From Sphingobium sp. DEHP117 (GTDB lineage Bacteria > Pseudomonadota > Alphaproteobacteria > Sphingomonadales > Sphingomonadaceae), in assembly GCF_030867385.1 (NCBI RefSeq), contig NZ_JAPFBJ010000003.1, positions 186,001 to 250,000 of the forward strand: DNA of 64,000 nucleotides. The letters run 5' to 3'. Positions 17,133 to 56,971 of this stretch are shown piece by piece (position 1 is the stretch's first letter; each line of letters opens with the position of its first letter). The position numbers were made by a program, and so were the translations under genes. The notes beneath the pieces were generated by a model that did not search any database, was not told the origin of the DNA, and was given only the letters and a program-made list of their open reading frames with translations.

Positions 17133-17651
17133 ATGCTATATCTGGTAAGCACTGCCGGTGCCGCTCAGTTTCCCACGATGCATGCGCCCCACTGGTTTGC
17201 CGCTTTTATCGATACGCTGGAGCCACGCCCGTACGGGGAGGAAGTGCTGGCCGCGCTTTTCATCAATCGGCTGGCAGAGGCCATAGGGGCAGTAACCCTG
17301 CACGGCGAACGGCACCGTGTGTCCCTTCCAGTGCGCGAGATCGTTCGGCGGGCCGCGCAGGCGCGGGCGGCCTTGGTGTTGCTGCTTCACACTCATCCCT
17401 CCGGCAATTCCCGCCCCAGCAGGCAGGATATCCTTCTGACGCACCGGCTGGAGGCTGACCTCGCGCTTGCTGGCATGGCGCTCTATGATCATATCATCCT
17501 CGCGCCCCACCACTATTTCAGCTTCCGCGCGGCGGGCTTGCTGAACCATTCAGAAAAGCTTGCGCTTCCCCTTGCCACACCGGCACCGCCCCCCTATAGG
17601 CTGCCGCCTGCCTTGCCGGGATCGCGTGATTCCGGCCCGGTCGGGGAGTAG
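17133..17651 (+). CDS. JAB-domain (RadC C-terminal type) protein
   Basis: This 172-residue protein is essentially the metal-binding MPN/JAB domain of RadC, with the motif LLHTHPSGNSRPSRQDILLTHRLE (roughly residues 84-107) giving the H-x-H-P-S-G...S-x-x-D zinc site, then LYDHIILAPHHYFSF. The helix-hairpin-helix N-terminus of full RadC is missing. Function is unknown; related domains are peptidases or DNA-associated. The TAG stop lies inside the tRNA-Pro gene (10-bp overlap), and the last 25 residues are Pro-rich and unlike the family. The phage attachment lies just beyond, so the 3' end may have been remodelled by integration. Confidence 0.7.
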   Translation: MLYLVSTAGAAQFPTMHAPHWFAAFIDTLEPRPYGEEVLAALFINRLAEAIGAVTLHGERHRVSLPVREIVRRAAQARAALVLLLHTHPSGNSRPSRQDILLTHRLEADLALAGMALYDHIILAPHHYFSFRAAGLLNHSEKLALPLATPAPPPYRLPPALPGSRDSGPVGE

Positions 17652-17718
17652 CTCAGCCTGGTAGAGCACTGTCTTCGGGAGGCAGGGGCCGGAGGTTCGA
17701 ATCCTCTCTCCCCGACCA
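17642..17718 (+). tRNA. tRNA-Pro (anticodon CGG)
   Basis: This is a 77-nt cloverleaf with the CCA encoded. The acceptor stem CGGGGAG pairs with CTCCCCG (17708-17714). The D-arm region is GTAGCTCAGCCTGGTAGAGC, the anticodon loop is TTCGGGA with CGG at its centre, the T-arm is around GGTTCGAATCC, and the discriminator is A. Integrase-bearing DNA begins directly after it, so it is the probable integration site of the prophage, with the 3' half restored by phage DNA. Confidence 0.96.
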
Positions 17719-40155: not shown

Positions 40156-41754
40156 ATGGGTATCATGGACGGGCTTCGTTCGATGTTCGGCGTGTCCTCA
40201 AAGCAGGCTTACGCCGGCTCGCGCCGTGATGCATCCCGGTATGATCTGACTGAATTCAGCGGTTGGAACCCGAGCCTGGGTTTCGCTGGATCCGACTTGT
40301 TCGGGGAATGGGACATCATCACCGGGCGCGCGCGCGACCTCGACCAGAATAATGGCTGGGTCAACGCGGGTATCGACCGTCGTGTCGAATCCGTCATCGG
40401 TGGCCAGATACGCCTGAGCGCGCAGCCTCAGCATGAACTGCTCAACCGCGACTATGAATGGCGGATGGGTTGGACCGCTGACGTGCAGGCCCGCTTCAAG
40501 TCGTGGGCGAACGATATTGAGCATCGTAATGATGCCCGTCAGCGTCTCAATTTCGGTGCGCAGGCAAAACTCGCCTACCTGACCTACGTGCGGGATGGCG
40601 AAGCCTGCGCGGAAATCCGCGATGACGCGCGTGGTATCCAGAACACCACCAACGTGTTGCTGATCGAGCCCGAGCGAGTCTGTCAGCCCAACAACCAGGC
40701 GGAAAGCTCGACGCTCCGCCGCGGCATACGCTACGATCGGAATGGCGCGGCGATCGGGTATTACGTCCGCAGCGGCAACCAGAACGATCCTGTGCCCGAT
40801 AATCAGATCCTGCGGTGGGACTACATACCAGCACGCGGGAAGACCGGGCGCGCCAAGTTCGTACACATCTATTCTCCTCGGCGGGTTGAACAGAACCGCG
40901 GCATCTCGCGCCTTGCTGAGGTGATGCTGCCGGCCAAGATGCTTGACCGGGTCGACCGGGCAGAGGTCAACGCGGCGCTGAAATCAGCAATCTTTTCGCT
41001 GTTCATCAAGTCGCCGGGAACCACAGAAGATCTCGAAGCAGCCCTTGCTCCATCGGGTAGCGGATCCACGCTGGATCCGTGGATTCAGGCTTACATCGAC
41101 CAGCGGAAGCAAAACCCTGTTCGGGTCGAAGGCGCGCAGGTTAACCACCTACTGCCTGACGAAGATGTCGTCACGCCGGAACGATCGAGCCCGAACACCA
41201 ACTATGCGGAATTCGCGCAATTCATCCTGCGCAAGATTGCCGGCTCGTTGGGCGTCGCTACGCCGCAGCTGTCCGGAGACTGGTCAGCGATCAACTATTC
41301 GAGCGCGCGCGCACTACTGAACGAAATCTGGAGGTCATTTCTGGAGGACCGTCATTATTTCACCCAGCATTTCCTGACACCGATCTACGCAGCGTGGCTG
41401 GAAATGGAGGTTGCGCTGGGCACGGTGAAGGTGCCCGGCGGGCCGGTGAATTTCTACCGAAACAAAACCGCAATCTGCATGGCTGAATGGATTGGTCCCG
41501 GGCGTGGTTCGGTGGATCCGCTTAAGGAAAGTTCGGCCAACAATGCTGACGCGGCGGCTGGTCGAGCGTCCACAGTTGAGCACATCCTCGAGCGGGGACG
41601 TGATCCCTCTGACGTTATGGCTGAAGAAGCCTGGTGGCTGGAGGAGCGTAAAAAACGGGGGCTGCCCACGCCAAACTATGATGTGAAGACTGCCCCCGAT
41701 GCATCTGGTGACAATGCTCCAAACGAAGCGCGCAAACAGAAGGTAGGTGCGTGA
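40156..41754 (+). CDS. portal protein (lambda gpB type)
   Basis: This 532-residue portal protein of the lambda family starts MGIMDGLRSMFG. It has DLDQNNGWVNAGIDRRVESV, YIPARGKTGRAKFVHIYSPR and FILRKIAGSLGVATPQLSGD, followed by INYSSARALLNEIWRSF, all in the order seen in gpB-like portals. It forms the dodecameric DNA channel of the head. The stop overlaps the start of the inserted HNH endonuclease gene (GTGA). Confidence 0.92.
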   Translation: MGIMDGLRSMFGVSSKQAYAGSRRDASRYDLTEFSGWNPSLGFAGSDLFGEWDIITGRARDLDQNNGWVNAGIDRRVESVIGGQIRLSAQPQHELLNRDYEWRMGWTADVQARFKSWANDIEHRNDARQRLNFGAQAKLAYLTYVRDGEACAEIRDDARGIQNTTNVLLIEPERVCQPNNQAESSTLRRGIRYDRNGAAIGYYVRSGNQNDPVPDNQILRWDYIPARGKTGRAKFVHIYSPRRVEQNRGISRLAEVMLPAKMLDRVDRAEVNAALKSAIFSLFIKSPGTTEDLEAALAPSGSGSTLDPWIQAYIDQRKQNPVRVEGAQVNHLLPDEDVVTPERSSPNTNYAEFAQFILRKIAGSLGVATPQLSGDWSAINYSSARALLNEIWRSFLEDRHYFTQHFLTPIYAAWLEMEVALGTVKVPGGPVNFYRNKTAICMAEWIGPGRGSVDPLKESSANNADAAAGRASTVEHILERGRDPSDVMAEEAWWLEERKKRGLPTPNYDVKTAPDASGDNAPNEARKQKVGA

Positions 41755-42329
41755 TGGCGCAGATACGCAAAGAGTGTGTCTCGATCGACTTCCTGCGGGA
41801 GATCATTGCCTACGACCCCGAAACTGGTGTATTGACATGGCTTCCGCGCAAGCCTGAATATTTCATCGATGGCAAACACAGTTCTGCTCATCGCGCAGGC
41901 GTTTGGAACGCTCGCTACGCAGGTAAGCCGGCGCTCGCCTCAAGGGAGCGGCAGGGTTACGGCCACGGGGATATTTTAGCCAAGAGATACAAGGCTCATC
42001 GGGTTGCTTGGGCAATCCACTACGGCTTTTGGCCCGAGACAGGAATAGACCAAATAAACGGTAACAGGGCTGACAATCGGATCCTCAATCTCCGCTTGGC
42101 TACGATGGCGGAGAATATGAAAAACCAGCGATTTTCAAAAGCGAACACGAGTGGAGTAATGGGGGTCAGCTGGGCTTCTCACCGGGGGAAATGGTCCGCG
42201 CAGATAAAAGTCAATAGGCGCAAGATTCACCTCGGCCTTTTCACGAATATTGCTGATGCCGCGCGTGCACGAAAAGCCGCCGAAAAGCGGTACGGGTTTC
42301 ACCCAAACCACGGGAAGCTGGCTGTATGA
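41751..42329 (+). CDS. HNH endonuclease with AP2-like DNA-binding domain (homing type)
   Basis: This is a 192-residue protein. The HNH core is YKAHRVAWAIHYGFWPETGI followed by DQINGNRADNRILNLRLAT (the H, N and N residues can be placed). The C-terminal AP2-type domain reads GVMGVSWASHRGKWSAQIKV then HLGLFTNIADAARARKAAEK. Such free-standing enzymes are homing endonucleases of phages. It lies between portal and protease genes, which are normally adjacent, yet is neatly coupled to both (GTGA at the start, ATGA at the end). Start may be GTG 41751 or ATG 41754. Confidence 0.9.
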   Translation: MMAQIRKECVSIDFLREIIAYDPETGVLTWLPRKPEYFIDGKHSSAHRAGVWNARYAGKPALASRERQGYGHGDILAKRYKAHRVAWAIHYGFWPETGIDQINGNRADNRILNLRLATMAENMKNQRFSKANTSGVMGVSWASHRGKWSAQIKVNRRKIHLGLFTNIADAARARKAAEKRYGFHPNHGKLAV

Positions 42330-43282
42330 GAACGACCAGACCACAAGGCTTCCCCCGTATCGCGGCGCAACTCTACGGACGACCGCTTGCCATCACCGAG
42401 CATCACGCGGAGATTCTGGCGCACGTCTTTGATGAAAAAATGGGCATTGTCAGTTCGACCGCCGTCAACGGCGTTGCGCTAGAAGCCCGCGCTATCGCTC
42501 AGCGCGTCGCGGAAATCGAGCGCAGCGCCATGGCACGTGACGCCACGTTCGACCCGGAAAACCGCAAGCCCTATCGGATGACCGGCAATATCGCGGTGAT
42601 AGAGATCGACGGAGTTCTCGTTCACAAAGGTGGCTGGATAGACGCAGCCTGCGGGTTCGTGGGCTACAATTATCTGCTCTCCATGTTCGAAGCAGCGATG
42701 CATGACCCCGACGTACTGGGCATTTGGGTAGTGATCGACTCGCCGGGGGGCGCCGTCGCCGGACTGTTTCAGTTCGTTGAGGAAATGGCACAGATGACGG
42801 CGGAAGCTGGCGGCAAGCCGGTTTATGCCTGGGTCGATGAGCAGGCTTGCAGTGCCGCCTATGTCATCCTGAGTATCTGCGACAAAGCATACGCTCCCAC
42901 ATCAGCGATGGTTGGCTCGATTGGATGCGTCGCAACCTTGCGGACGATCAATCGTGCACTCGATCAAGCCGGCGTCGACGTGGAGATATTCCGGTCACGT
43001 CCCCGCAAGGCGCGCGGCGGCCCCTTCGAGGCAATGGACGATGAGACGCGCGCGCGCATCCAGCGCAGCGTAGACGAGGCCGACGATATCATGGCGGCCA
43101 TTGTTGCAGCTGGCCGCGATCTGACCCTCGACGCGATCGATCAGATGGGCGGCGATTGGTTCGAAGGAGATGAGGCTGAGAGCTTGGGCCTCGTCGATGC
43201 CATTGTGTCCGAACGCGATGCCTGGGCTCTGCTCGAGGACGAAGTCGATCGCATCAAGCGCGAAAAGAGGAAACCACAATGA
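42326..43282 (+). CDS. head maturation protease, S49/ClpP-like (lambda gpC type)
   Basis: This 318-residue serine peptidase has the SppA-like core: VIEIDGVLVHKGGW, GIWVVIDSPGGAVAGLFQFV, and the catalytic Ser in VDEQACSAAYVILSICDKAY, then APTSAMVGSIGCVATLR. In the lambda group it digests the scaffold and processes the portal during prohead maturation. The start overlaps the HNH gene stop (ATGA) and the stop overlaps the scaffold gene (ATGA). Confidence 0.9.
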   Translation: MRTTRPQGFPRIAAQLYGRPLAITEHHAEILAHVFDEKMGIVSSTAVNGVALEARAIAQRVAEIERSAMARDATFDPENRKPYRMTGNIAVIEIDGVLVHKGGWIDAACGFVGYNYLLSMFEAAMHDPDVLGIWVVIDSPGGAVAGLFQFVEEMAQMTAEAGGKPVYAWVDEQACSAAYVILSICDKAYAPTSAMVGSIGCVATLRTINRALDQAGVDVEIFRSRPRKARGGPFEAMDDETRARIQRSVDEADDIMAAIVAAGRDLTLDAIDQMGGDWFEGDEAESLGLVDAIVSERDAWALLEDEVDRIKREKRKPQ

Positions 43283-43809
43283 GCCGGATTGCAGCAATTC
43301 GTGCGGCAGCGAAGGGTGCCAAGGCGCCCGTCGACGACGACGAAGACAACGAAGAAACCATTGAGAATGACGGCGCTCCTGCTCCGTCCAAATCGAAACG
43401 AAAGGACTCAGATATGGCGGAAGCCGAAAACCATGCCGCGGCTATCGAGGCCGCGAAGAAGGAAGGTCAAGCGCTTGGCTTCAAGGCCGCAAACGAGCGC
43501 ATGAATGCCGTGTTCGCCAGCGAGCACTACACCGGGCGCGAAGGCGCGGCGGCGAAGCTGTTGGGCAAAGAGGCGATGTCGGCAGATGATATTGTCGAAG
43601 TGCTCGCCGAGATGCCAAAGGTCGAGCCGGCTGCGCTGACCGAGGATCAGCAGCGCGCCGCTGCTGAAGAAGCTGGACGCAAGGAAATGCTCCAGCAGCT
43701 CAACCAGCAGGGCAACAGCGGTGTCGATGCCGATGCGGGCGGCAAGTCGGCTGAACCGAACCACGGATGGGACGCGATCCACGCCGACATCCGCGCCCGT
43801 CGCGGCTGA
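43279..43809 (+). CDS. scaffold-like capsid assembly protein
   Basis: This 176-residue, acidic, helical protein (DDDEDNEETIENDGAPAP near the start; AAAIEAAKKEGQALGFKAAN; ending NHGWDAIHADIRARRG) lies directly after the protease. In lambda the scaffold Nu3 is read in frame inside C; here it is a separate gene coupled by ATGA. The composition and place support a scaffold; the sequence itself has no catalytic motif. Confidence 0.75.
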   Translation: MSRIAAIRAAAKGAKAPVDDDEDNEETIENDGAPAPSKSKRKDSDMAEAENHAAAIEAAKKEGQALGFKAANERMNAVFASEHYTGREGAAAKLLGKEAMSADDIVEVLAEMPKVEPAALTEDQQRAAAEEAGRKEMLQQLNQQGNSGVDADAGGKSAEPNHGWDAIHADIRARRG

Positions 43810-47024: not shown

Positions 47025-48212
47025 ATGGCATTTCGCTCGCAATTCACGTCTGTGGCGGTTGCGGTTCAGTCGTCCGTCGACACATGGGGATCCCCTTCGT
47101 CCACGACCGACGTATTCCCTTGCGCCAACGTCAAGCTGTCCAAGGAGTCTATCCTTGCCGAGAACCCGGAATATCTAGGCACGGTCGACAAGCCCGGCGA
47201 CTTCGTGCTCGGCCAGAAGGTCGGCTTGACACTCTCGATCCCGCTGCGCGCTCCGGGTGGTGCCTCGCCGCCGTCTGCCGGCGCGTTCATTCCGGGCCGC
47301 TTCCTGCGCGCCGCCGGATGGACTGAGAACATCATTTCCTCGGCTATACCGGCCTCGCCGGAAGCGCTCGGTTCAGGGTCCACCACCACCGCGGCCAAGC
47401 TCGGCTCATCGGCCACAGGCACGGCCAACCTCTACAAGGGGCTGGCGCTCACCCTCTCCGACAACGGCACTGGCTATAACCGCCAGATGACAGCGATCCG
47501 CGATTACAGCGCCGCAAAACTCGCGACGATCGCGGAAACTCTGGGTGGCGCTCCTGCGGCGAACTACCAGATCCCCAAGCAGCTCGCCTATCAGAGTGGC
47601 GCATCGGGCACGCCGCCGGTGCTTTCCTTGAGCGTCTGGTACGACGCGGTGCGGTACGACCTCATCAACATGACGGTATCGGGTTTGAAGTTCAACTTCC
47701 CGGTCTCGACCCGGAACTCGACCGAATATCCGATGATGGAACTGACGCTCGACGGCGACCTCTACGCCTTCGCAGATCAGGCAGCACCCCTGGTTGGTGC
47801 TCTTGGCGGCATTCCGACGTTCAAGGACGGCGACTTCTGGATTGCCGGCAAGGCGCTGGGCGGCAGCAGCTTCTCCGCCGACATGGGCATTCAGGTCGGC
47901 TATGCGCCCAACCCCAACAAGGCGTCTGGCAACGACGCGGCGCAGATCACGATGACCAAGCGCACCGCGCAGATCACGCTCAACCACAACCTGAAGGCGA
48001 CGATCGACTTCGAGGCGCTGGCACTGGCTCAGGCACAACACGCGCTTTGGGCACAGTATGGCTATGTCGCTGGCAACATGGTGAGCTTCATCATCCCCAA
48101 TGGTCGCTTCGCCTACGCCAATGTCGACAATGGCAGTGAGTTCATCAGTCAGACGATCGACATGCTGATCGACGATTCCGACAAGGCTCTGAATCTCATC
48201 TTTCCGTACTGA
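47025..48212 (+). CDS. major tail (tube) protein
   Basis: This 395-residue protein begins AFRSQFTSVAVAVQSSVDTW. Parts such as LGQKVGLTLSIPLRAPGG, YDLINMTVSGLKFNFPVSTR and FSADMGIQVGYAPNPNKASG have the alternating strand pattern of phage tail tube proteins. The position between the tail terminator and the G/GT-type chaperone pair supports this. It is larger than lambda gpV (246), so extra surface domains are likely. Confidence 0.75.
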   Translation: MAFRSQFTSVAVAVQSSVDTWGSPSSTTDVFPCANVKLSKESILAENPEYLGTVDKPGDFVLGQKVGLTLSIPLRAPGGASPPSAGAFIPGRFLRAAGWTENIISSAIPASPEALGSGSTTTAAKLGSSATGTANLYKGLALTLSDNGTGYNRQMTAIRDYSAAKLATIAETLGGAPAANYQIPKQLAYQSGASGTPPVLSLSVWYDAVRYDLINMTVSGLKFNFPVSTRNSTEYPMMELTLDGDLYAFADQAAPLVGALGGIPTFKDGDFWIAGKALGGSSFSADMGIQVGYAPNPNKASGNDAAQITMTKRTAQITLNHNLKATIDFEALALAQAQHALWAQYGYVAGNMVSFIIPNGRFAYANVDNGSEFISQTIDMLIDDSDKALNLIFPY

Positions 48213-48238
48213 ACCTTCCCTCACCCCGGAGATTTCCC

Positions 48239-49015
48239 GTGACAAAATACCCGGTCGAAGGCGGGGAGTTGGTCGAATATACGCCCGACTCCCTCGTCAA
48301 CCTGATTGAGCCTCCCAAATTCTTCCTGCGTCCCGTCACCGAGCGGGAGCGCCGCCGACTGCGCAAGCTCGCCATCCAGGAGGGATTGCGCAGCCACGAT
48401 GTCGCCAAACTGCGCGAGGAGACCTTGAACGGTCTTCGCGAGCTTTGGTCGGAGCAGGTGTTTGCTGAGCAGGAGGGCCGTCTGCGCGCCTTCTGGGATG
48501 CCTATGACCAGCACGAGCAGGAGCAGGAGGGCAAGGAGGATCCCGAGCCATTCGAGCACCCCGACAAAGCCGCGATGATGGAGCTCAGCGAGCGCATCAC
48601 GCGCGCATGGGCGCCGCTGTTGCGCATGGTGGCCGACAATAACGAGTGGGACGAGACGTGGCCCAAGCTCATCGCGTCGATCACCGTTGCCGGCTGGCGC
48701 GATCTCGACGCCCGCTATGAGCGCAGCGAGGGCATTGTGGGCCTCGACTGCCTCGACGAGATGGAAAAGGCGCTGGATGCCGTCGAAGCCCAGGCAATGA
48801 CCGATCAGGTCGACGGAGTTATCGGCCACGGCACGGCATTCCGCCAGCTTATCGTGCGCTGCATCCGCCTGTTCAGCGTGAGCAAGGCCGAGGAAAAAAA
48901 CTCCGAATCGCCGTCGAAGTCCTCCACCACCCCGAACACTTCGAAGGCGAGTGGGAAGGAACAGAAGGCTGGGTCATCGGCGGCGAAAAATTCCAGCGAA
49001 ACCCTCGCGAACTGA
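48239..49015 (+). CDS. tail assembly chaperone, short form (gpG-like)
   Basis: This 258-residue protein starts GTG 48239 and is made when no frameshift occurs. The body is helical (FLRPVTERERRRLRKLAIQE, then LREETLNGLRELWSEQVFAE); the final 38 residues after codon 219 are Ser/Lys-rich and without structure (SPSKSSTTPNTSKASGKEQK), as is usual for the zero-frame tail of such genes. It binds the tape measure protein during tail assembly. It lies between tube and tape measure genes. Confidence 0.8.
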   Translation: MTKYPVEGGELVEYTPDSLVNLIEPPKFFLRPVTERERRRLRKLAIQEGLRSHDVAKLREETLNGLRELWSEQVFAEQEGRLRAFWDAYDQHEQEQEGKEDPEPFEHPDKAAMMELSERITRAWAPLLRMVADNNEWDETWPKLIASITVAGWRDLDARYERSEGIVGLDCLDEMEKALDAVEAQAMTDQVDGVIGHGTAFRQLIVRCIRLFSVSKAEEKNSESPSKSSTTPNTSKASGKEQKAGSSAAKNSSETLAN

Positions 49016-49179
49016 TCGACGAGGAAGACATGGATATCGTGCACATGTTCCACCGATGCGACATGGGGATGGCGGGCCGCATCTGGCCCGATGGCGGCTC
49101 GCTGCTTGATCAGCCCGTGAAACTGGTGCGCGCGTTTTCCGTGATTGCTGACGCCGTGGCTAAGGTGCGCAAGACATGA
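48239..49179 (+). CDS. tail assembly chaperone, -1 frameshift product (gpGT-like)
   Basis: A -1 slip at A AAA AAC (48895-48901) joins the first 220 codons to a second open frame that has no start of its own. After the slip it reads LRIAVEVLHHPEHFEGEWEG, then GWVIGGEKFQRNPRELIDEE, DMDIVHMFHRCDMGMAGRIW and ends ADAVAKVRKT at 49176, for 313 residues. The second frame is well composed, ends in an ATGA overlap with the next gene, and fills a 160-bp space otherwise without a gene. This is the G/GT arrangement of lambda and many siphophages, with one of the most slippery heptamers known. Confidence 0.85.
48895..48901 (+). promoter_or_regulatory. -1 ribosomal frameshift site AAAAAAC
   Basis: The heptamer is in the zero frame as A AAA AAC (X XXY YYZ), within gaggAAAAAAACtcc. 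Both tRNAs can re-pair after a one-base slip. Downstream sequence is GC-rich and could form a stimulatory structure, but I did not identify a definite one. Confidence 0.85.
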
Positions 49180-49880
49180 TGCGCGCCGCGCTGCGCCGGC
49201 CCAGCCCCGGCGTCTTTCAGGACTATCGCCGCTTTGCCATCCAGCGGTCGGAGCGCGCGGCGCTTATTGCCACCGATCGCGCGTCATCTGCCGGCAAAGT
49301 GGGAGACCGACAGGATATGGCTGGTGCTGGGCTTGGGCGTCTCGGCTTCGCGCTCGGCTCCGGCTCCGACCTCCAGAAGAATGGGCAAGTCCATCGCTTC
49401 GGCGCAAGCGGCTTCCGGGCTTCAGGCTGGATCTTCGTGCGCTCCCGTTCCGAGCGTACCCTTGGCACCATCCAGATTTATACCGAGGGCGGCGAGATTC
49501 TTCCCCGCAAGGGCTGGCTCTGGATGCCGACCGACAATGTGCCCAAGCGCGTCGGCCGCTACAAGATGACGCCCAAGCGCTACATGGCATCTCCACTCGC
49601 CTCCTCGATCGGCCCGCTTGTGCAGATTGAGGGGCGGCACAGTGGCGAGGCGTTGCTGGTGGTGCGCAATGTCACCACGCGACTGTCTGGCCGGTCCAAT
49701 CCGCGCCGCCTGCCGCGCAGTGGTCGGGCGCGCGCCGGACGCGAGGTGCAGGACATGATCGTCATGTTCGTCGGCATCCGCCGCACGAGCCGCACCCAGC
49801 GCGTCGACCCCGCCGCGCGCCACCGTCAACAGCAGGCGCTGCTGCCCCGTTACTGGCACGAAGCAATAGGGACCATCTGA
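49176..49880 (+). CDS. DUF6441 family tail-region protein
   Basis: This 234-residue basic protein starts by ATGA overlap with the frameshifted chaperone. The segment GEILPRKGWLWMPTDNVPKR is typical of DUF6441 proteins, which lie between the chaperone and tape measure genes in many alphaproteobacterial siphophages. Exact role is unknown; probably a minor tail component. Confidence 0.7.
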   Translation: MMRAALRRPSPGVFQDYRRFAIQRSERAALIATDRASSAGKVGDRQDMAGAGLGRLGFALGSGSDLQKNGQVHRFGASGFRASGWIFVRSRSERTLGTIQIYTEGGEILPRKGWLWMPTDNVPKRVGRYKMTPKRYMASPLASSIGPLVQIEGRHSGEALLVVRNVTTRLSGRSNPRRLPRSGRARAGREVQDMIVMFVGIRRTSRTQRVDPAARHRQQQALLPRYWHEAIGTI

Positions 49881-49883
49881 GCC

Positions 49884-52800
49884 ATGAGCGCACCCAGCCA
49901 GTTCCCCGCCTTCCTCAGCATTGAATATGACGGTCGCGGCGACGGCTTTCCTGCGTTCGAACGCGCTGCCAATGCGAGCATTGGTCAGGTTGAAGGGAGA
50001 CTGCGTCAGTTCACCCGGAGCTTTGAGGAGGTTGGCCGGGTCGCCTCCAAGGCGATTGCTGGCGGCGTCTCGAATGCTGGCGGGCTGGATCTGGGCGTGG
50101 GTCAGTTCAAGATGGCTGCGGCGGAAGCGCGGCTCTATGAGGAAACGCTGCGCGAGATGCACACCGCAGCGAGTCGCCTTGCCGTGGAGGTCGGTGATAC
50201 CAGCAGGGCAACCACCAGCTATGTGCAGGCGCTCTCCGCGCAGACGATCGAGGCCCAACGTGCGCGCGAGGAGGCGGAGGCTCAGGTTGTCACCTATGCG
50301 CGGTTGCAGCAGGCGATGGATGGTGCCTCGTCGGCCGAAAGCAGAATGTCGGCAGCGTTCCGCGACGTGCAGAAGATGCGCGAGGCGGCGCAATTCGCCA
50401 AGGAATATGAGCAGGCGCTGTTCAACATCCGCCAGCAGGTGGACCCGGCTTATTTCGCTCAGAAGCGGTTCAATCAGGAACTGGCCTTCGCCGATCAGGC
50501 ATTGAGGGCGGGTGACATCACGGCGGACCAATACGCCAAGCGCCTCGCATTCCTGCGCGGCGAAATGGCTCTCAACGCCGCCTCCACCCGCCAGATGCGG
50601 TTCGCCTCGGTCCAGCTTGGTCAGCAGTTGCAGGACGTTGTCATCCAGGCGCAGATGGGCACCAATGCTTTCGTCATCCTTGCCCAGCAGGGTTCTCAGA
50701 TGGCGTTCGCGCTGACGGAGGCTGAGGGCAAGGTCGGCGCGGTCGCGCGCGCGCTAGCCGGATGGCAGGGTGCAATTGTCTTCGCCGGCGTCGCTCTGGT
50801 CGGGCAGCTGATTCCTGCACTGATGAACAGTTCGCAGAAGGCGTTGCAGCTCGAGGACGCGCTGAGCAAGGTCAAGTTCGCCAGTGATGCCGTCCAGAGC
50901 GCGCAGGGCATCCTCGGCAACGTGATGGACATCACCACGGGCAAGATCAGTACCCAGCGGCAGGAGCTGCTGGATCTCGCCAAGGCGCAGCTGCTGGTTG
51001 CCCAGTTGCAGGCGCGGGCGCGCGCCGATGCTGCTCGCGGCCAGGTTGGCGACCTGGCCAAACCCACCATGGAATATGGCGGCGGTATGGGCGGCGGCTT
51101 GTACGTGGGGAGGCGGCCTGCCGGATTGCGGGGCCAGTTCGCAAACGAGTTCCTTGCCGGCAAATCCTCCGCGGAGGAAACCATCAACAGGTTGAAGTTG
51201 CTGGCTGACAACGGACGGATGACGAAAGAGGCGTTCGCTGAGGCCGCCGCAGCTGTTGCCAACTTCAACCTTGAAACGGCGAACATAAAGTCGCTGGAAG
51301 CGGCTGAGAGGCTATTGAGCGGCAAGGGCACCGCAGCCGACCGGAAGCTACTGCTCAAGCCCGACAAGCCGAAGGACACCTCCAAGGAACTGGCGACCCT
51401 CGCTGAGCGTGGGGAGGATGTGGCCAAGAAGATCGCCAACATCACCGATCGCTTCTCCGATATGCCGCCGCAGGTGCGCAGCGTGAATGCGGCGCTGCGC
51501 GAGCTCGACGATCTTGCCGACGACTTCTCGAAGAAGAAGCCGCCCAATTATGGTGAGATCGTCACGATGATCGCCGAGGCGCGCAAGGCTATCCAGGAGA
51601 ATGGGCTGGATCAGCCGGTCAATGATCTGCTGGAGGCGCAGCAGCAGCAGTTGGTGATCAACGATTTGCAGGCGCGCGGTCGCGAAGCCGAGGCGGCGGC
51701 CTTGCAGCAAATTCTCCAAAAGGAAAAAGATCGCGGCCCGCTAACTCAAGCGCAGAAGGACGCTATCCTCGAAAGCAATGTCGCGCTACGCGCCCAGACG
51801 CGCGAGCTCGAGCGGCAGCAGTTCTACCAGCGCAACCTGCTGAACTTCGTGCAGGCGCAGCGCGAGGCGGTGAATGACCTAGTCTACAACCTGCTGAGCG
51901 GCAAAGGGCTTTCCTCGGTCGGCGGCTTCGTCAAAGGCGTGTTCAACAATTACCTGCGCGCGCTGTCGGACGAGATCACCAACAGCCTGACCGCGAACTT
52001 CTTTCAGAAGCAGACCGACCGGATCAAGGGCGAGACCCATCTGAGCGACGCGGGCAAGCGGATGGCGAGCTCGATCGATGAACTCAAGAAGGCGCTCGAC
52101 TCGCTCACCAAGTCGGTCAGCACGGCGGCGGGCGAGATAAGCGACGCTCCTACTACGCCGACGGCAGCAAACGACAACGGTTCCAACACCATAACTGCGA
52201 CCGCGCGCCGCACAGTCAGCCAGACCTTGAAAGATGGCCTCAAGGACATCGGCAAGGCGATCTTCGGAGAGAAGGGGGCCGCAAAGTTCGGGCAGGTGGC
52301 GGGCGCTGCCATGCAGGGCGCCGCCGTCGGCACGATGACATCGGGCGTCCTCAAGTCGCTCGGCGTAAAGCAGAGCACGCTGGGAGCGCAGCTTGGTGGC
52401 GCGCTGGGTAGCGCGGTCGCAGGCCCGCTAGGGGCAGTGGTGGGCAGTGTGCTCGGCGGCACGGTCGGCGGTATGCTCAAGAAGACGAAATGGGGCGCCG
52501 TCACGGTCAACTCCGGCGGCGTGTCCCAGGGCTCGGGCAACAGCGGCAGCGCGATCGGCGCGGCAGTGCAGGCGGGTGGCGCGTTCGATAGCCAGCTGCG
52601 CAAGATTGCCGATGCCCTGGGTGGCAAGATCGGCGACTTCGGCAACATCACCATTGGCCAGCGACATGGAGACTGGCGCGTCAACACGGGCGGCACCAGC
52701 CTCAAGGTCAAGAAGGGCGCAACCGACTTCAACGGCGATGGCGAGGCGGCGATTGCGTATGCGGTGCAGATTGCGCTTGAGCGGGGTGCTGTAACGGGCT

Positions 52801-53531
52801 TGCGCAACGGCACGAACAATCTGCTCAAGGCGGCGGGCGACATGCAGGAGAAGCTGAGCAAGGCGCTTAGTTTCGAGGGTGTGTTCCGTGATCTGGCCAA
52901 GTTCAAGGATCCTGTCGGCTCGGCGATCAACGACCTCAACCTTGAGTACAACAAGCTCAAGGACATTTTCACGCAGGCCGGGGCTACTACTGCGGAATGG
53001 GGGCAGTTGGAGGAACTGTACCAGATCAAGCGCAAGTCGGCGACCGAGGAGGCTTTGAGGTCACTCACGGGCAGCCTGGACGATCTCTACAAGAACCTGA
53101 CCATCGGCGACAACGGATACTCAGTCCGCACCCGCCTTAGCAACGCACGGGCGAACTATGACCCGCTGGCTGCGCGCGTGGCCGCGGGAGACAGCACGGC
53201 CTATAACGACTTCGCCGCCGCCGCGCAGACGCTGATCGAATTGCAGCGGGAGTATAGCGGCTCTGCGCCGGAATATTTCGCGGTGCTGGATCAGGTCACG
53301 GCGCTGACGAAGGGCGAGCTCGATCGACAGAAGGCGCTGTATTCGAGTGCGGCCGGGTCCGCCTCTCCGTTCGATACGCAGCCCATCGTCGACGCTACGC
53401 AGCAGCAGACCAATGCAATTGTCACTGCGCTTGGGGCGCAAAATCAAGCGGCCAACGACAACGCCGCCCGCATATTGGCCGCCTTGCAAGCGCTCGGCGC
53501 GCGCGGTTCTCTGGGTCGGCTTAACTTCTGA
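49884..53531 (+). CDS. tail tape measure protein
   Basis: This 1215-residue protein has long helical stretches (AREEAEAQVVTYARLQQAMD), a tail-length-measure N-terminal region (MRFASVQLGQQLQDVVIQAQ MGTNAFVILAQQ-type) and a hydrophobic helix (GWQGAIVFAGVALVGQLIPA). Gly/Ala-rich membrane-like segments follow near residue 830-880 (GGALGSAVAGPLGAVVGSVL). It sets tail length and enters the host envelope on infection. Lambda gpH is 853; a longer tail is implied. The stop overlaps the next start (TGATG). Confidence 0.88.
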   Translation: MSAPSQFPAFLSIEYDGRGDGFPAFERAANASIGQVEGRLRQFTRSFEEVGRVASKAIAGGVSNAGGLDLGVGQFKMAAAEARLYEETLREMHTAASRLAVEVGDTSRATTSYVQALSAQTIEAQRAREEAEAQVVTYARLQQAMDGASSAESRMSAAFRDVQKMREAAQFAKEYEQALFNIRQQVDPAYFAQKRFNQELAFADQALRAGDITADQYAKRLAFLRGEMALNAASTRQMRFASVQLGQQLQDVVIQAQMGTNAFVILAQQGSQMAFALTEAEGKVGAVARALAGWQGAIVFAGVALVGQLIPALMNSSQKALQLEDALSKVKFASDAVQSAQGILGNVMDITTGKISTQRQELLDLAKAQLLVAQLQARARADAARGQVGDLAKPTMEYGGGMGGGLYVGRRPAGLRGQFANEFLAGKSSAEETINRLKLLADNGRMTKEAFAEAAAAVANFNLETANIKSLEAAERLLSGKGTAADRKLLLKPDKPKDTSKELATLAERGEDVAKKIANITDRFSDMPPQVRSVNAALRELDDLADDFSKKKPPNYGEIVTMIAEARKAIQENGLDQPVNDLLEAQQQQLVINDLQARGREAEAAALQQILQKEKDRGPLTQAQKDAILESNVALRAQTRELERQQFYQRNLLNFVQAQREAVNDLVYNLLSGKGLSSVGGFVKGVFNNYLRALSDEITNSLTANFFQKQTDRIKGETHLSDAGKRMASSIDELKKALDSLTKSVSTAAGEISDAPTTPTAANDNGSNTITATARRTVSQTLKDGLKDIGKAIFGEKGAAKFGQVAGAAMQGAAVGTMTSGVLKSLGVKQSTLGAQLGGALGSAVAGPLGAVVGSVLGGTVGGMLKKTKWGAVTVNSGGVSQGSGNSGSAIGAAVQAGGAFDSQLRKIADALGGKIGDFGNITIGQRHGDWRVNTGGTSLKVKKGATDFNGDGEAAIAYAVQIALERGAVTGLRNGTNNLLKAAGDMQEKLSKALSFEGVFRDLAKFKDPVGSAINDLNLEYNKLKDIFTQAGATTAEWGQLEELYQIKRKSATEEALRSLTGSLDDLYKNLTIGDNGYSVRTRLSNARANYDPLAARVAAGDSTAYNDFAAAAQTLIELQREYSGSAPEYFAVLDQVTALTKGELDRQKALYSSAAGSASPFDTQPIVDATQQQTNAIVTALGAQNQAANDNAARILAALQALGARGSLGRLNF

Positions 53532-56500
53532 TGCACGTCCTTATTGAGCTCACCCCCCTAGATCCTGTCGCGGGGACGCGAACGACGTTGCGCCTGTCAT
53601 CGGCGCAGGACAGGACAATAGCCGACCTCAATGGCGTGCGCTGGTGGCCGGGCATCATCCGCAAGCCCTCGCTTTCGATGAGTCTGTTTGATGGGGATTT
53701 CTCTTCGAGCATTGATGTGGGACAGGCAAGTCTCGAACTGTCGCTGACGGCGCTGGAAAAGCTCAACAGCAACGCGCGCCGGTTCGTGTGGGCCGGGGCT
53801 TCCATCACGATCTACGCCGGGACCAGCGGACAGGCGTGGCCGTGGACAACGGTGTTTGCTGGCAAGGTCAAGACCTTCCGCGCGGCGGCAAGTCGCCTCT
53901 CGGTCGTTGCGACGGTCGATGATGAGCCATTCTCGGTGCAGGTGCCGTCGGCGACCTATGCGGGCACTGGCGGGCTGGAGGGCGGCGCAGACATCAAGGG
54001 CAAGCCCAAGCCGTGGGCGTTTGGCGCTCCGAAGAATGTCGAGCCCGTGCTTATCGACAGCCTCAACTCGGTGTTTCAGGTCAGCGCCTATGGGAGCGGG
54101 ATCAAGGCGGTCACAGCCCTTTATGAGCGTGGAGCGCCGTTCAGCGCATCCTTCGGCAATTATGCCGACTATGCCGCGCTTGTAGCCGCCAACATCCCCG
54201 CCGGGCGTTGGGCGACGTGCCTCGCCTCTGGTCTCATCCGATTGGGCGCGCCGCCTTACGGGCTGATAACGGCCGATATCGAGGGAGACTATAACGGCTC
54301 GGTGTGGACACGCCTGCCCGGCGCCATCCTCCAGCGCATCGCAACGGCCCTGTCTATATCCTCTGGTGTGATTGACAGCACATCGCTGGGCGCGATCGAC
54401 ACCTACGCGGCTACGCTCCCCGCTGGCGGCAACATCAGCCTCTACCTGACCGAGCAGCTGACCTTTCTGGATCTGGCACAAAAGCTTGCGCTCACATTCA
54501 ACGCGCAAGCCGGGATATCGTGGACCGGAAAGCTGTTCATGACGCGCGCCGCGATTGGCAGCCCGGTGGCAACGCTGGATTCGCAGCAGAAGCGCCTGCC
54601 GCGCGTGACCGATTGCATAGAGGCGGATGTGTCTCCGCCTTATACGAAGATCCAGATGGGCGCGCAGAAGTGTTGGAGGGTGCATACCTTCGACGAGATC
54701 GCGTTCGGGGCCGAGTTGATCGACAAGGGTCTCTATTCGGCCTCGGTTGTTTATCGGGACGGCAATATCGTTTCGCTCGATGATGGCTCGCGTTGGCTGT
54801 TCGTGGGCGCAACGCCGGTTGCGGGGTCGGCCCCGACAGACGTGAACACCAATTGGGCGCGGATGACGAATGCGGTGCAGTCCGCAGCTATTGCCGCCGC
54901 CCAGGCAGCAGCAGACGCCGCGCAGGCCGATGCCGACGCAGCGCTGACGACGCTCACCAACATCGCGTCCGATAGCCTGCTGACGCCGGATGAGAAGCCG
55001 CGCGTCATTCAGGATCGCGACGCCATCGTGGCGGAGCAGGCGGGCATCGATGCACAGGCCAGCGCCTTTTCCATCACGACCGAGAAGACGACCTACGACA
55101 CCGCCGTTTCGGCGCTCACCACCTATCTGGCGACGCTGACCAGCCCGGTGCTGTGGTCTAACCTGACCGGCAACACCACGATCGTGGGTGCGACATTCCG
55201 CCAGAAGTTCCTCGATGTGTATGCGGCGCGGCAGGCGCTCTTGAACAAGATCGCGGCGGAGGCGGCGAAGCGGGCGGACTGGTCGCAACTCAACGGCGTG
55301 CCCTATGACGAGATTTTCAATTCCGACGATGATGTAACGCTGGGCTTTAACCCTGTCTTCGCGGCGTGGAGCGGCCTCTATCCGGATAACTGGTCGAACT
55401 GGACCGGTGGTGCGCCGACCAAAGAAACGAGCATTGTTCGCGTCGGCAGCAACGCGGTGCGCATGACGGCCTCGGGATCGGATCGCGGCATCCAGTGCGA
55501 CGCGATCAGCTTCACCTCGACGCCGTTTCCGGTGGGAACGTTTCTCTCCGGAGCAGTCGACTTCTATCTCGCGGCGCGAACCTCCGGATTGCCCGGCATA
55601 TTGGTGCGGCTGTACACAAACTCCGCGCGAACTACTTTTGTCGATACGACCGTGCAGCCCGGCACAACGACAGTAGCGTGGCAGCGTGTGCCTTGGACCG
55701 CTCGGGTCGGTTCGACGCAGCAGATCTACGGCATCCGCATCTACGCGATGGCGAGCTGGACCGCATTCCCGAGCGGTTCTTTCACCGGCGACGTGATCTT
55801 CGGCGATATCCGCTTCGGCCTGTTCGACTCCTCGACCGACAACAAGGCTGTGGCAATCGCGGCAGATGGAACCCTCTCTGGTGCTGGCGGCGGGCAGGTA
55901 ACGATCACCGGGCTGGGATATTCTGGGGATCTCAATGCCACCAATGGCGCGCCCGTAGGAACATTGGTAGCTGGGGTATCCGCAAGCACGGTGGCCACAG
56001 CCACCACGAACTTCAACGCCAGCAACGACCGCAACAGCGCGGCGGTAGCAGCGCCCACGGTGGCCACCGATGGCACGGCGGTGGATCACACGCTGCAATC
56101 CAACGGTTCGGCCGATATCAGCTTTGAATGGAGCTGGGGTGGAGCCGAGGGCGATATCGACGGCTTCCTGGTCTATCTCTACCAGAGCAGCAGCAGCGCG
56201 GCCTATAGCTTCGGCACCACGCCTGCGGCAGAGACGGTCTTCACCCTGCCTGCCAGCAAACGCGCCTTCATCCTGTTCGGCACCGCGCCGGACCAATATT
56301 ACAGCTTTGCGGTGCAGGCCTATCGCTCGGTCGACAAGGATATCAACGCCGCCGGCGCGATCAAATCGACGCTGGTGAAGGCGACGGGCAGCGGGGAGAA
56401 CCCCTATCGCCCATCGGCGAGCGTTGCCTTTGGCGGGAATGTGACGGGCACGGTAAACGGCATCGCGGCGGCGAACGTCAACGTCTGGTCGCAGATTTCG

Positions 56501-56971
56501 GGCACCGGCAAGCCCGCCGACAATGCCACGGTCGGCGCGCCGGCTGGCACCAACGTGGGCGGCACAGCGGCAACCACGGTGGAAAGCGGCGCGAACGCGG
56601 CGAACGCAGGCGTCAATTCGGATGGCACGATCAAGAACGACAAGGTGATTACCAATTCGATGGTCGATGAAAGCGCGACGATGCAGCGATCGGCCTTCTC
56701 TGCGAGCAACAACGCAGTGGTTACGGTTACGCTGACCAAGCCAGCGTCCATCGCCATGATCGGAAGTGTTTCATGCCCAAGGACGGGCTTCAATCAGTTT
56801 CTTGCCATCAATGGCGTCAATGTGAGGACCGAGAGCGTGATCGGAGGGTCTATTCCCGCTATGCTGTACCGCACCGACCTGGGGGCAGGAACCTATGATT
56901 TTCAATGTTATTCCACAGACAATGTCCAGGGGTTCAACGCCACCATCATATTACTTGCGAGCTACAAATGA
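53531..56971 (+). CDS. tail tip / host-contact protein
   Basis: This 1146-residue protein has an N-terminal baseplate-hub-like part (to about residue 430; RTIADLNGVRWWPGIIRKPS, YLTEQLTFLDLAQKLALTFN). It continues with an Ala-rich coiled coil (IAAAQAAADAAQADADAALT), a beta-rich middle, a fibronectin-III-like stretch (ADISFEWSWGGAEGDIDGFL) and a C-terminal spike-like end. The second half resembles the central-fibre regions of gpJ-type proteins. Separate gpL, gpK and gpI genes are not present, so this one gene may replace several tip proteins. The stop overlaps the following start (ATGA). Confidence 0.75.
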   Translation: MHVLIELTPLDPVAGTRTTLRLSSAQDRTIADLNGVRWWPGIIRKPSLSMSLFDGDFSSSIDVGQASLELSLTALEKLNSNARRFVWAGASITIYAGTSGQAWPWTTVFAGKVKTFRAAASRLSVVATVDDEPFSVQVPSATYAGTGGLEGGADIKGKPKPWAFGAPKNVEPVLIDSLNSVFQVSAYGSGIKAVTALYERGAPFSASFGNYADYAALVAANIPAGRWATCLASGLIRLGAPPYGLITADIEGDYNGSVWTRLPGAILQRIATALSISSGVIDSTSLGAIDTYAATLPAGGNISLYLTEQLTFLDLAQKLALTFNAQAGISWTGKLFMTRAAIGSPVATLDSQQKRLPRVTDCIEADVSPPYTKIQMGAQKCWRVHTFDEIAFGAELIDKGLYSASVVYRDGNIVSLDDGSRWLFVGATPVAGSAPTDVNTNWARMTNAVQSAAIAAAQAAADAAQADADAALTTLTNIASDSLLTPDEKPRVIQDRDAIVAEQAGIDAQASAFSITTEKTTYDTAVSALTTYLATLTSPVLWSNLTGNTTIVGATFRQKFLDVYAARQALLNKIAAEAAKRADWSQLNGVPYDEIFNSDDDVTLGFNPVFAAWSGLYPDNWSNWTGGAPTKETSIVRVGSNAVRMTASGSDRGIQCDAISFTSTPFPVGTFLSGAVDFYLAARTSGLPGILVRLYTNSARTTFVDTTVQPGTTTVAWQRVPWTARVGSTQQIYGIRIYAMASWTAFPSGSFTGDVIFGDIRFGLFDSSTDNKAVAIAADGTLSGAGGGQVTITGLGYSGDLNATNGAPVGTLVAGVSASTVATATTNFNASNDRNSAAVAAPTVATDGTAVDHTLQSNGSADISFEWSWGGAEGDIDGFLVYLYQSSSSAAYSFGTTPAAETVFTLPASKRAFILFGTAPDQYYSFAVQAYRSVDKDINAAGAIKSTLVKATGSGENPYRPSASVAFGGNVTGTVNGIAAANVNVWSQISGTGKPADNATVGAPAGTNVGGTAATTVESGANAANAGVNSDGTIKNDKVITNSMVDESATMQRSAFSASNNAVVTVTLTKPASIAMIGSVSCPRTGFNQFLAINGVNVRTESVIGGSIPAMLYRTDLGAGTYDFQCYSTDNVQGFNATIILLASYK

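Follow-up and report, generated by a model that had tools for sequence, protein, structure and literature searches.

Ribosomal frameshifting in the tail assembly chaperone genes of phages is a device long known, and in lambda the slippery heptamer is G GGA AAG. Lambda GT, on the account given in PMC5009743, connects the tape measure and tube proteins. Among the Caulobacter phages, the pre-tape-measure chaperone genes of phiCbK and its relatives are described as using AAAAAAC and those of Colossus GGGAAAC (PMC3556154), and the gp12/gp13 pair of the Acinetobacter phage Loki is described with AAAAAAC beside the first-frame stop (PMC5313236). For an HK97-like chaperone cluster, frameshift rates of 6 and 7% were measured for two genes (PMC3711429).

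We report the analysis of a prophage locus in a 64-kb stretch of DNA (positions 186001-250000, part of a 3.59-Mb genome; this whole stretch is referred to as the window), where two reading frames, G and T, meet at a heptamer of this kind. From the sequence and its relatives we consider it very probable that the locus is a tail assembly chaperone gene with a programmed -1 ribosomal frameshift. The protein pair itself was not found named in Pfam, PHROG or the PDB. What is new is a conserved frameshift set of tail chaperones lying beyond Pfam and PHROGs, the likely RNA stem behind the heptamer being the main addition, and heptamer plus stem could be used as a rule when such prophages are annotated. 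The features of the locus, with the evidence for each, are:

47025-48212, + strand: major tail protein candidate (position only, no family match)
48228-48231, + strand: SD-like GGAG upstream of the G start (found by eye)
48239-49015, + strand: G, the zero-frame gene, 258 aa, GTG start (sequence; homologues in five other genomes)
48895-48901, + strand: slippery heptamer A AAA AAC in zero phase (sequence; all 33 distinct loci have an X XXY YYZ here)
48901-49179, + strand: T domain in the -1 frame, 92 codons and TGA at 49177-49179 (alignment, dN/dS, AlphaFold2)
49176-49880, + strand: DUF6441-like gene between T and the tape measure gene (iterated search)
49884-53531, + strand: tail tape measure protein (PF06791 TMP_2, E 4.4e-08)

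The zero frame of G reads GAG GAA AAA AAC TCC at 48890-48904, which places A AAA AAC in the phase for slipping, and runs on to a TGA at 49013-49015. The -1 frame meets its upstream stop 180 nt before 48901 and contains no ATG, GTG or TTG from that stop to 45 nt past 48901; its earliest start codon, the ATG at 49030, would leave 49 codons. It closes in the ATGA at 49176-49179, where the end of T overlaps the start of the next ORF. The 160 bp between G and that ORF (49016-49175) have stops in both other forward frames, and a frameshift explains this space without another gene. The first-pass annotation had described the zero-frame heptamer and the 92 open codons with their ATGA overlap exactly, and its remarks that the -1 frame has no start of its own and that the 160 bp hold no other gene are borne out by the same reading.

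Both frames, the heptamer, its conservation and the selection on T are demonstrated, and the stem has statistical support; from these we infer the slip itself, a slip rate and the chaperone function. The majority of ribosomes would translate 48239-49015 into G. On a minority, the tRNA-Lys at AAA and the tRNA-Asn at AAC would shift back by one base within A AAA AAC and pair anew with AAA AAA, and reading would continue in the -1 frame (CTC CGA ATC and onwards to the TGA), giving a GT protein of about 313 aa that would consist of G residues 1-221 and the 92-residue T domain. The stem, opening 6 nt behind the heptamer, would probably cause the ribosome to pause and raise the slip rate. From their position, the most likely roles, as in lambda, are that G covers the tape measure protein and that T brings the tube protein to it.

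The heptamer by itself is no evidence, since the window has six copies of AAAAAAC on its two strands, where 2.89 are expected and at least six are found in 6 of 100 shuffles. Chance does not account for the phase it keeps, for its position where the -1 domain begins, or for its conservation. G matched six genomes among 397 of the family, the window's own included, and in the five others a zero-phase A AAA AAC is followed by a T homologue in the -1 frame; relative to the window, their G proteins are 30-36% identical (27-32% by tblastn) and their T domains 37-49% identical when aligned. A search of phage records with T gave one weak match, Synechococcus phage MinM1 (ON981384.1, locus L007; E 4e-3). 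A T profile, built from an alignment of seven T domains with the rows cut at the heptamer, retrieved 29 viral-contig loci and, among 396 genomes of the order, matched 7 (own genome included). These searches, by G or by the -1 domain, yielded 33 distinct loci including the window, drawn from genomes, viral contigs and one named phage. Left out of the full series L001-L044 were L008, which is the other end of MinM1 and has no T; L038-L040, which are the same places as L001, L003 and L004; and L011, L014, L022, L026, L033 and L034, identical to others from 60 nt before the heptamer to the T end. L037 is handled apart.

A slippery heptamer in zero phase stands at the start of T in all 33 loci, A AAA AAC in 30 and G GGA AAC in three, and the base directly 3' of it is always T. 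Two pairs, L029/L030 and L023/L028, are near-identical, so the 33 loci are not all independent of one another and G GGA AAC, with its three loci, amounts to two cases. Because the seed rows were cut at the heptamer, its place is built in for the seven seed loci, and the real test is made by the other 26. The profile starts exactly at the heptamer in 32 of the 33; in L031 the match begins at profile position 15 and the heptamer lies 12 nt further upstream. Iterated profile search identifies the zero-frame ORF as homologous to G in 31 loci; the G profile did not recognise the zero frame of L007, which is cut by the record end, or that of L032. In these same two loci the zero-frame stop follows directly behind the heptamer. 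In six others (L003, L006, L018, L019, L023 and L028) the -1 frame is closed 12-18 nt before the first T codon and, if one mechanism is common to the family, these stops mean that the frames can meet only at the heptamer. Counts over the 30 loci with a G start set give AAG for 252 of the lysine codons elsewhere in G and AAA for 88 (AAG about three quarters), and six other zero-phase X XXY YYZ heptamers upstream in 6260 places. Homologues of the -1 frame and conservation of the A-run, on which the first-pass annotation had staked its claim, were both found: the former in the five family genomes (37-49% identity) and the 29 viral-contig loci, the latter as a heptamer in every one of the 33 loci, either the same or a different X XXY YYZ.

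Behind the heptamer there is likely to be an RNA stem that acts as a stimulator of the frameshift. The predicted elements in the window are:

48902-48907, + strand: spacer of 6 nt from heptamer to stem (anchored-stem count)
48908-48922, + strand: 5' arm of the predicted RNA stem, 13 bp in the window (anchored-stem count)
48972-48986, + strand: 3' arm of the predicted RNA stem (anchored-stem count)

An anchored stem was counted where, in an 86-base stretch starting 12 nt past the first base of the heptamer, the helix opens at one of bases 1 to 5, in 30 sequences (L007, L028 and L029 were dropped). Stems of at least 7 bp were present at this site in 25 of the 30, the remaining five having none of that length there, and 539 control offsets gave a mean of 11.2 (sd 2.9) and a maximum of 20. 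A spacer of 5-8 nt separates the heptamer from the 5' arm, whose first base is the 6th to 9th after the heptamer. The arms vary by locus and their partners match them, as in L015, L025 and L027; when the 5' arms were reshuffled among the 30 sequences, none of 20000 permutations matched the native set in stability. Under permutation, in which relatedness is ignored, stems of at least 7 bp numbered 18.8 on average and reached 25 in 99 of 20000, and swapped arms formed such stems in 62% of combinations; with an average as high as 18.8, the pairing comes in part from shared composition. In fold scans with 70-base stretches, the one starting 10 nt past the first base of the heptamer had the lowest mean z of 56 offsets (-1.54 vs a mean of -0.24, sd 0.34). 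With 45 bases, the stretch behind the heptamer ranked third of 56 (z -0.64), the lowest z lying upstream of the heptamer, and the 55-base scan was weak (mean z -0.96 over 33). Stretches of 70-100 bases were clearer than those of 45 or 55, and since this size was picked after the results were seen, the fold scan is weakened more than the anchored count and permutations are. RNAalifold found no pairs in a MAFFT alignment of 23 sequences, which we believe is because the distance to the 3' arm varies; the anchored counts were used instead. The word 'programmed', which the first-pass annotation had used with no mention of a stem, thereby gains likely further support.

The distance between heptamer and stem found here is the usual one for stimulators of ribosomal slipping, and it bears, together with the variation in the heptamer, on whether the slip is made by the ribosome at all. 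RNA polymerase might instead slip on the run of A and produce a mixed pool of mRNA, the fusion then arising by transcription, as the seven A in a row at 48894-48900 and in 23 of the 33 loci (window counted) would allow. Against this, seven loci have only six A, and the three with G GGA AAC have no A-run beyond AAA, an exchange that leaves tandem slippage on the heptamer possible and removes the long A-run. Polymerase slippage also sits poorly with a heptamer whose codon phase is kept in 33 of 33 loci and with a stem so close behind it, and we give it a small chance only.

A ribosomal slip also accounts better for how T begins than would a gene of its own, with its own start and its translation coupled to that of G. 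On the evidence of its substitutions, T is a real protein under purifying selection. Between the window and L009, dN is 0.077 and dS 0.541 over the 53 codons past the zero-frame stop, and the changes over all 92 codons of the -1 frame number 9, 8 and 29 at codon positions 1 to 3, that is, mainly at the third. Some ATG, GTG or TTG does lie upstream of T in the -1 frame in 13 of the 33 loci, as a separate gene would need. In the other 20, the window among them, the stretch between the upstream stop and 45 nt beyond the T start has none (the record of L007 ends 87 nt upstream, before any stop). Moreover, the conservation of T starts at the slip site with an invariant Leu, and a gene with its own start would need no heptamer in zero phase; a separate T gene is therefore very improbable, about half as probable in our view as slippage by the polymerase. 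AlphaFold2 models G and T with mean pLDDT of 88.1 and 90.7, respectively, and the end of G that overlaps T, from about residue 221, falls to 51-58. This end is probably disordered, as may be expected of a tail that accompanies the -1 frame. It is scarcely credible that nothing here is programmed and that an ordinary gene has been broken in two by an indel or a sequencing error in the A-run, for although homopolymers are error-prone the two-frame layout is common to 33 distinct loci, three of them without a long A-run.

The programmed ribosomal frameshift is also in keeping with the surroundings of the locus. A lambda-type head and tail operon runs from about 37.7 kb with genes for a GpA-type terminase, portal, S49 protease, capsid E, head-tail attachment and the tape measure protein. 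G and T have the position of tail chaperones: the tape measure gene lies downstream with one gene between, and the tail protein upstream is recognised by position and conservation only. A homologue of 47025-48212 lies upstream of the slip site in 31 of the 33 loci. The product of 49176-49880 has no direct Pfam match and was linked by iterated search to an ORF of L007, whose protein matches PF20039 DUF6441. Its homologue is found downstream of T in 31 of the 33 loci, in 30 at or near the T end and in L016 2659 bases (2.7 kb) behind T; in L011 the DUF6441-like gene (ORF from 5345) is about 2 kb or more from T. In these two loci other sequence has come between. A tape measure homologue is present in 22 of the 33 loci, several loci being too short to hold one.

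Some further features of the window were observed outside the chaperone locus. Between the portal and S49 head protease genes lies an HNH endonuclease (41751-42329; HNH_3, AP2 below cut-off), placed as a homing-endonuclease insert would be. The head protease gene (42326-43282) and the ORF after it (43279-43809) match the N- and C-terminal parts of phrog_53 and have a four-base overlap in a -1 relation, so that protease and scaffold look to be split into two genes at 42326-43809. Behind the tape measure gene, the product of 53531-56971 carries a DUF7359 domain (residues 827-946, E 4e-50), and a tRNA-Pro(CGG) is found at 17642-17718, 20 kb upstream of the terminase gene.

The choice of heptamer may be connected to the tRNAs of the host. 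A tRNA search of the genome gave 42 matches, in which ARAGORN recognised one tRNA-Lys(UUU), one tRNA-Lys(CUU) and one tRNA-Asn(GUU); the list is perhaps incomplete, with tRNA-Ile(GAU) and tRNA-Ala(UGC) missing from it. In this one host genome, the separate tRNA-Lys(CUU) would make AAG a poor choice and favour AAC. In E. coli, according to PMC5009743, A AAA AAC slips far less than A AAA AAG, a point that speaks against the frameshift proposed here. L037, a more distant contig whose zero frame is a putative G, reads GTA AAA AAG TAA; past this the -1 frame stays open, the DQP block of T follows at some distance, and the GC content of the contig is 40% vs 56-75% in the 33 AAC loci. We suggest tentatively, and think it rather doubtful, that a GC-rich lineage of phage chaperones has a fixed two-part signal, consisting of an AAC-ending heptamer, of the kind reported to be the shiftiest on mammalian ribosomes, and a stem 5-8 nt behind, in which AAC is perhaps kept since the tRNA-Lys(CUU) of the hosts would read AAG without slipping and so bar A AAA AAG. 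If this were true, the heptamer choice would be a readout of the host tRNA set, and L037 is the only AAG case.

Family and structure searches were directed at G and T. Pfam and PHROGs gave only weak matches for G and T, none significant, so that the comparison of T with tail chaperone families proposed in the first-pass annotation returned no significant match. The best family match was that of the G of L041 to phrog_313 'Tail assembly chaperone' (E 0.0023), a family matched at E <=0.1 by 2 of 30 G members, the window's G not among them. PDB sequence searches gave one match at chance level (E 0.52); a second such search gave 30, the best at E 0.012, with envelope proteins and response regulators as the matched entries, which we took as chance. 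No Foldseek match reached E <=0.001, whether in the PDB (searched with G and T) or in BFVD (searched with G); in BFVD the best match of G was an uncharacterised phage protein (E 0.13), and further down, at a non-significant E of 6.1, comes the Xylella phage Sano protein 'Pre-tape measure frameshift protein G'. Scans of genome contigs returned 65 and 219 stretches, none confirmed, and tblastn in phages with four chaperone-family proteins and the window's DUF6441-like protein gave no match. Rfam reported tRNA only, a second run adding one minus-strand match below cut-off (E 0.49), taken as chance. In the literature searched, no paper joined 'DUF6441' with 'tail' and none named phage MinM1.

Compared with lambda G/GT as set out in PMC5009743, the locus is alike in having the gene ahead of the tape measure gene, a late -1 slip that adds a C-terminal domain and a heptamer of the form X XXY YYZ. 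It differs in that the heptamer is A AAA AAC, T is separated from the tape measure gene by a DUF6441-like gene, and a downstream stem is supported. The Pfam, PHROG, PDB and Foldseek searches gave no significant homology to a named chaperone family. The 'lambda G/GT arrangement' of the first-pass annotation is apt for how the locus works and does not extend to demonstrated family membership, in view of these search results and of the intervening DUF6441-like gene.

The Caulobacter phages phiCbK and Colossus have, as far as the account in PMC3556154 goes, the same two heptamers as the 33 loci; they are absent from the matches of G and T in phage records and, provided that their records are among those searched, the proteins look unrelated at that sensitivity. 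MinM1 is alike in reading GCA AAA AAC TGA, followed by a T-like domain and a DUF6441 gene, and unlike in that its zero frame stops at the heptamer. In its deposited annotation the T gene (149-403 of L007) starts inside the domain and the frameshift is unannotated, while the other end of the record, which holds most of G, carries a misc_feature only. Loki, from what PMC5313236 relates of it, has an HK97 gp10-like gene where the window has the DUF6441-like one, and shares with L007 and L032 the AAAAAAC by the first-frame stop and with the window the single gene between chaperones and tape measure.
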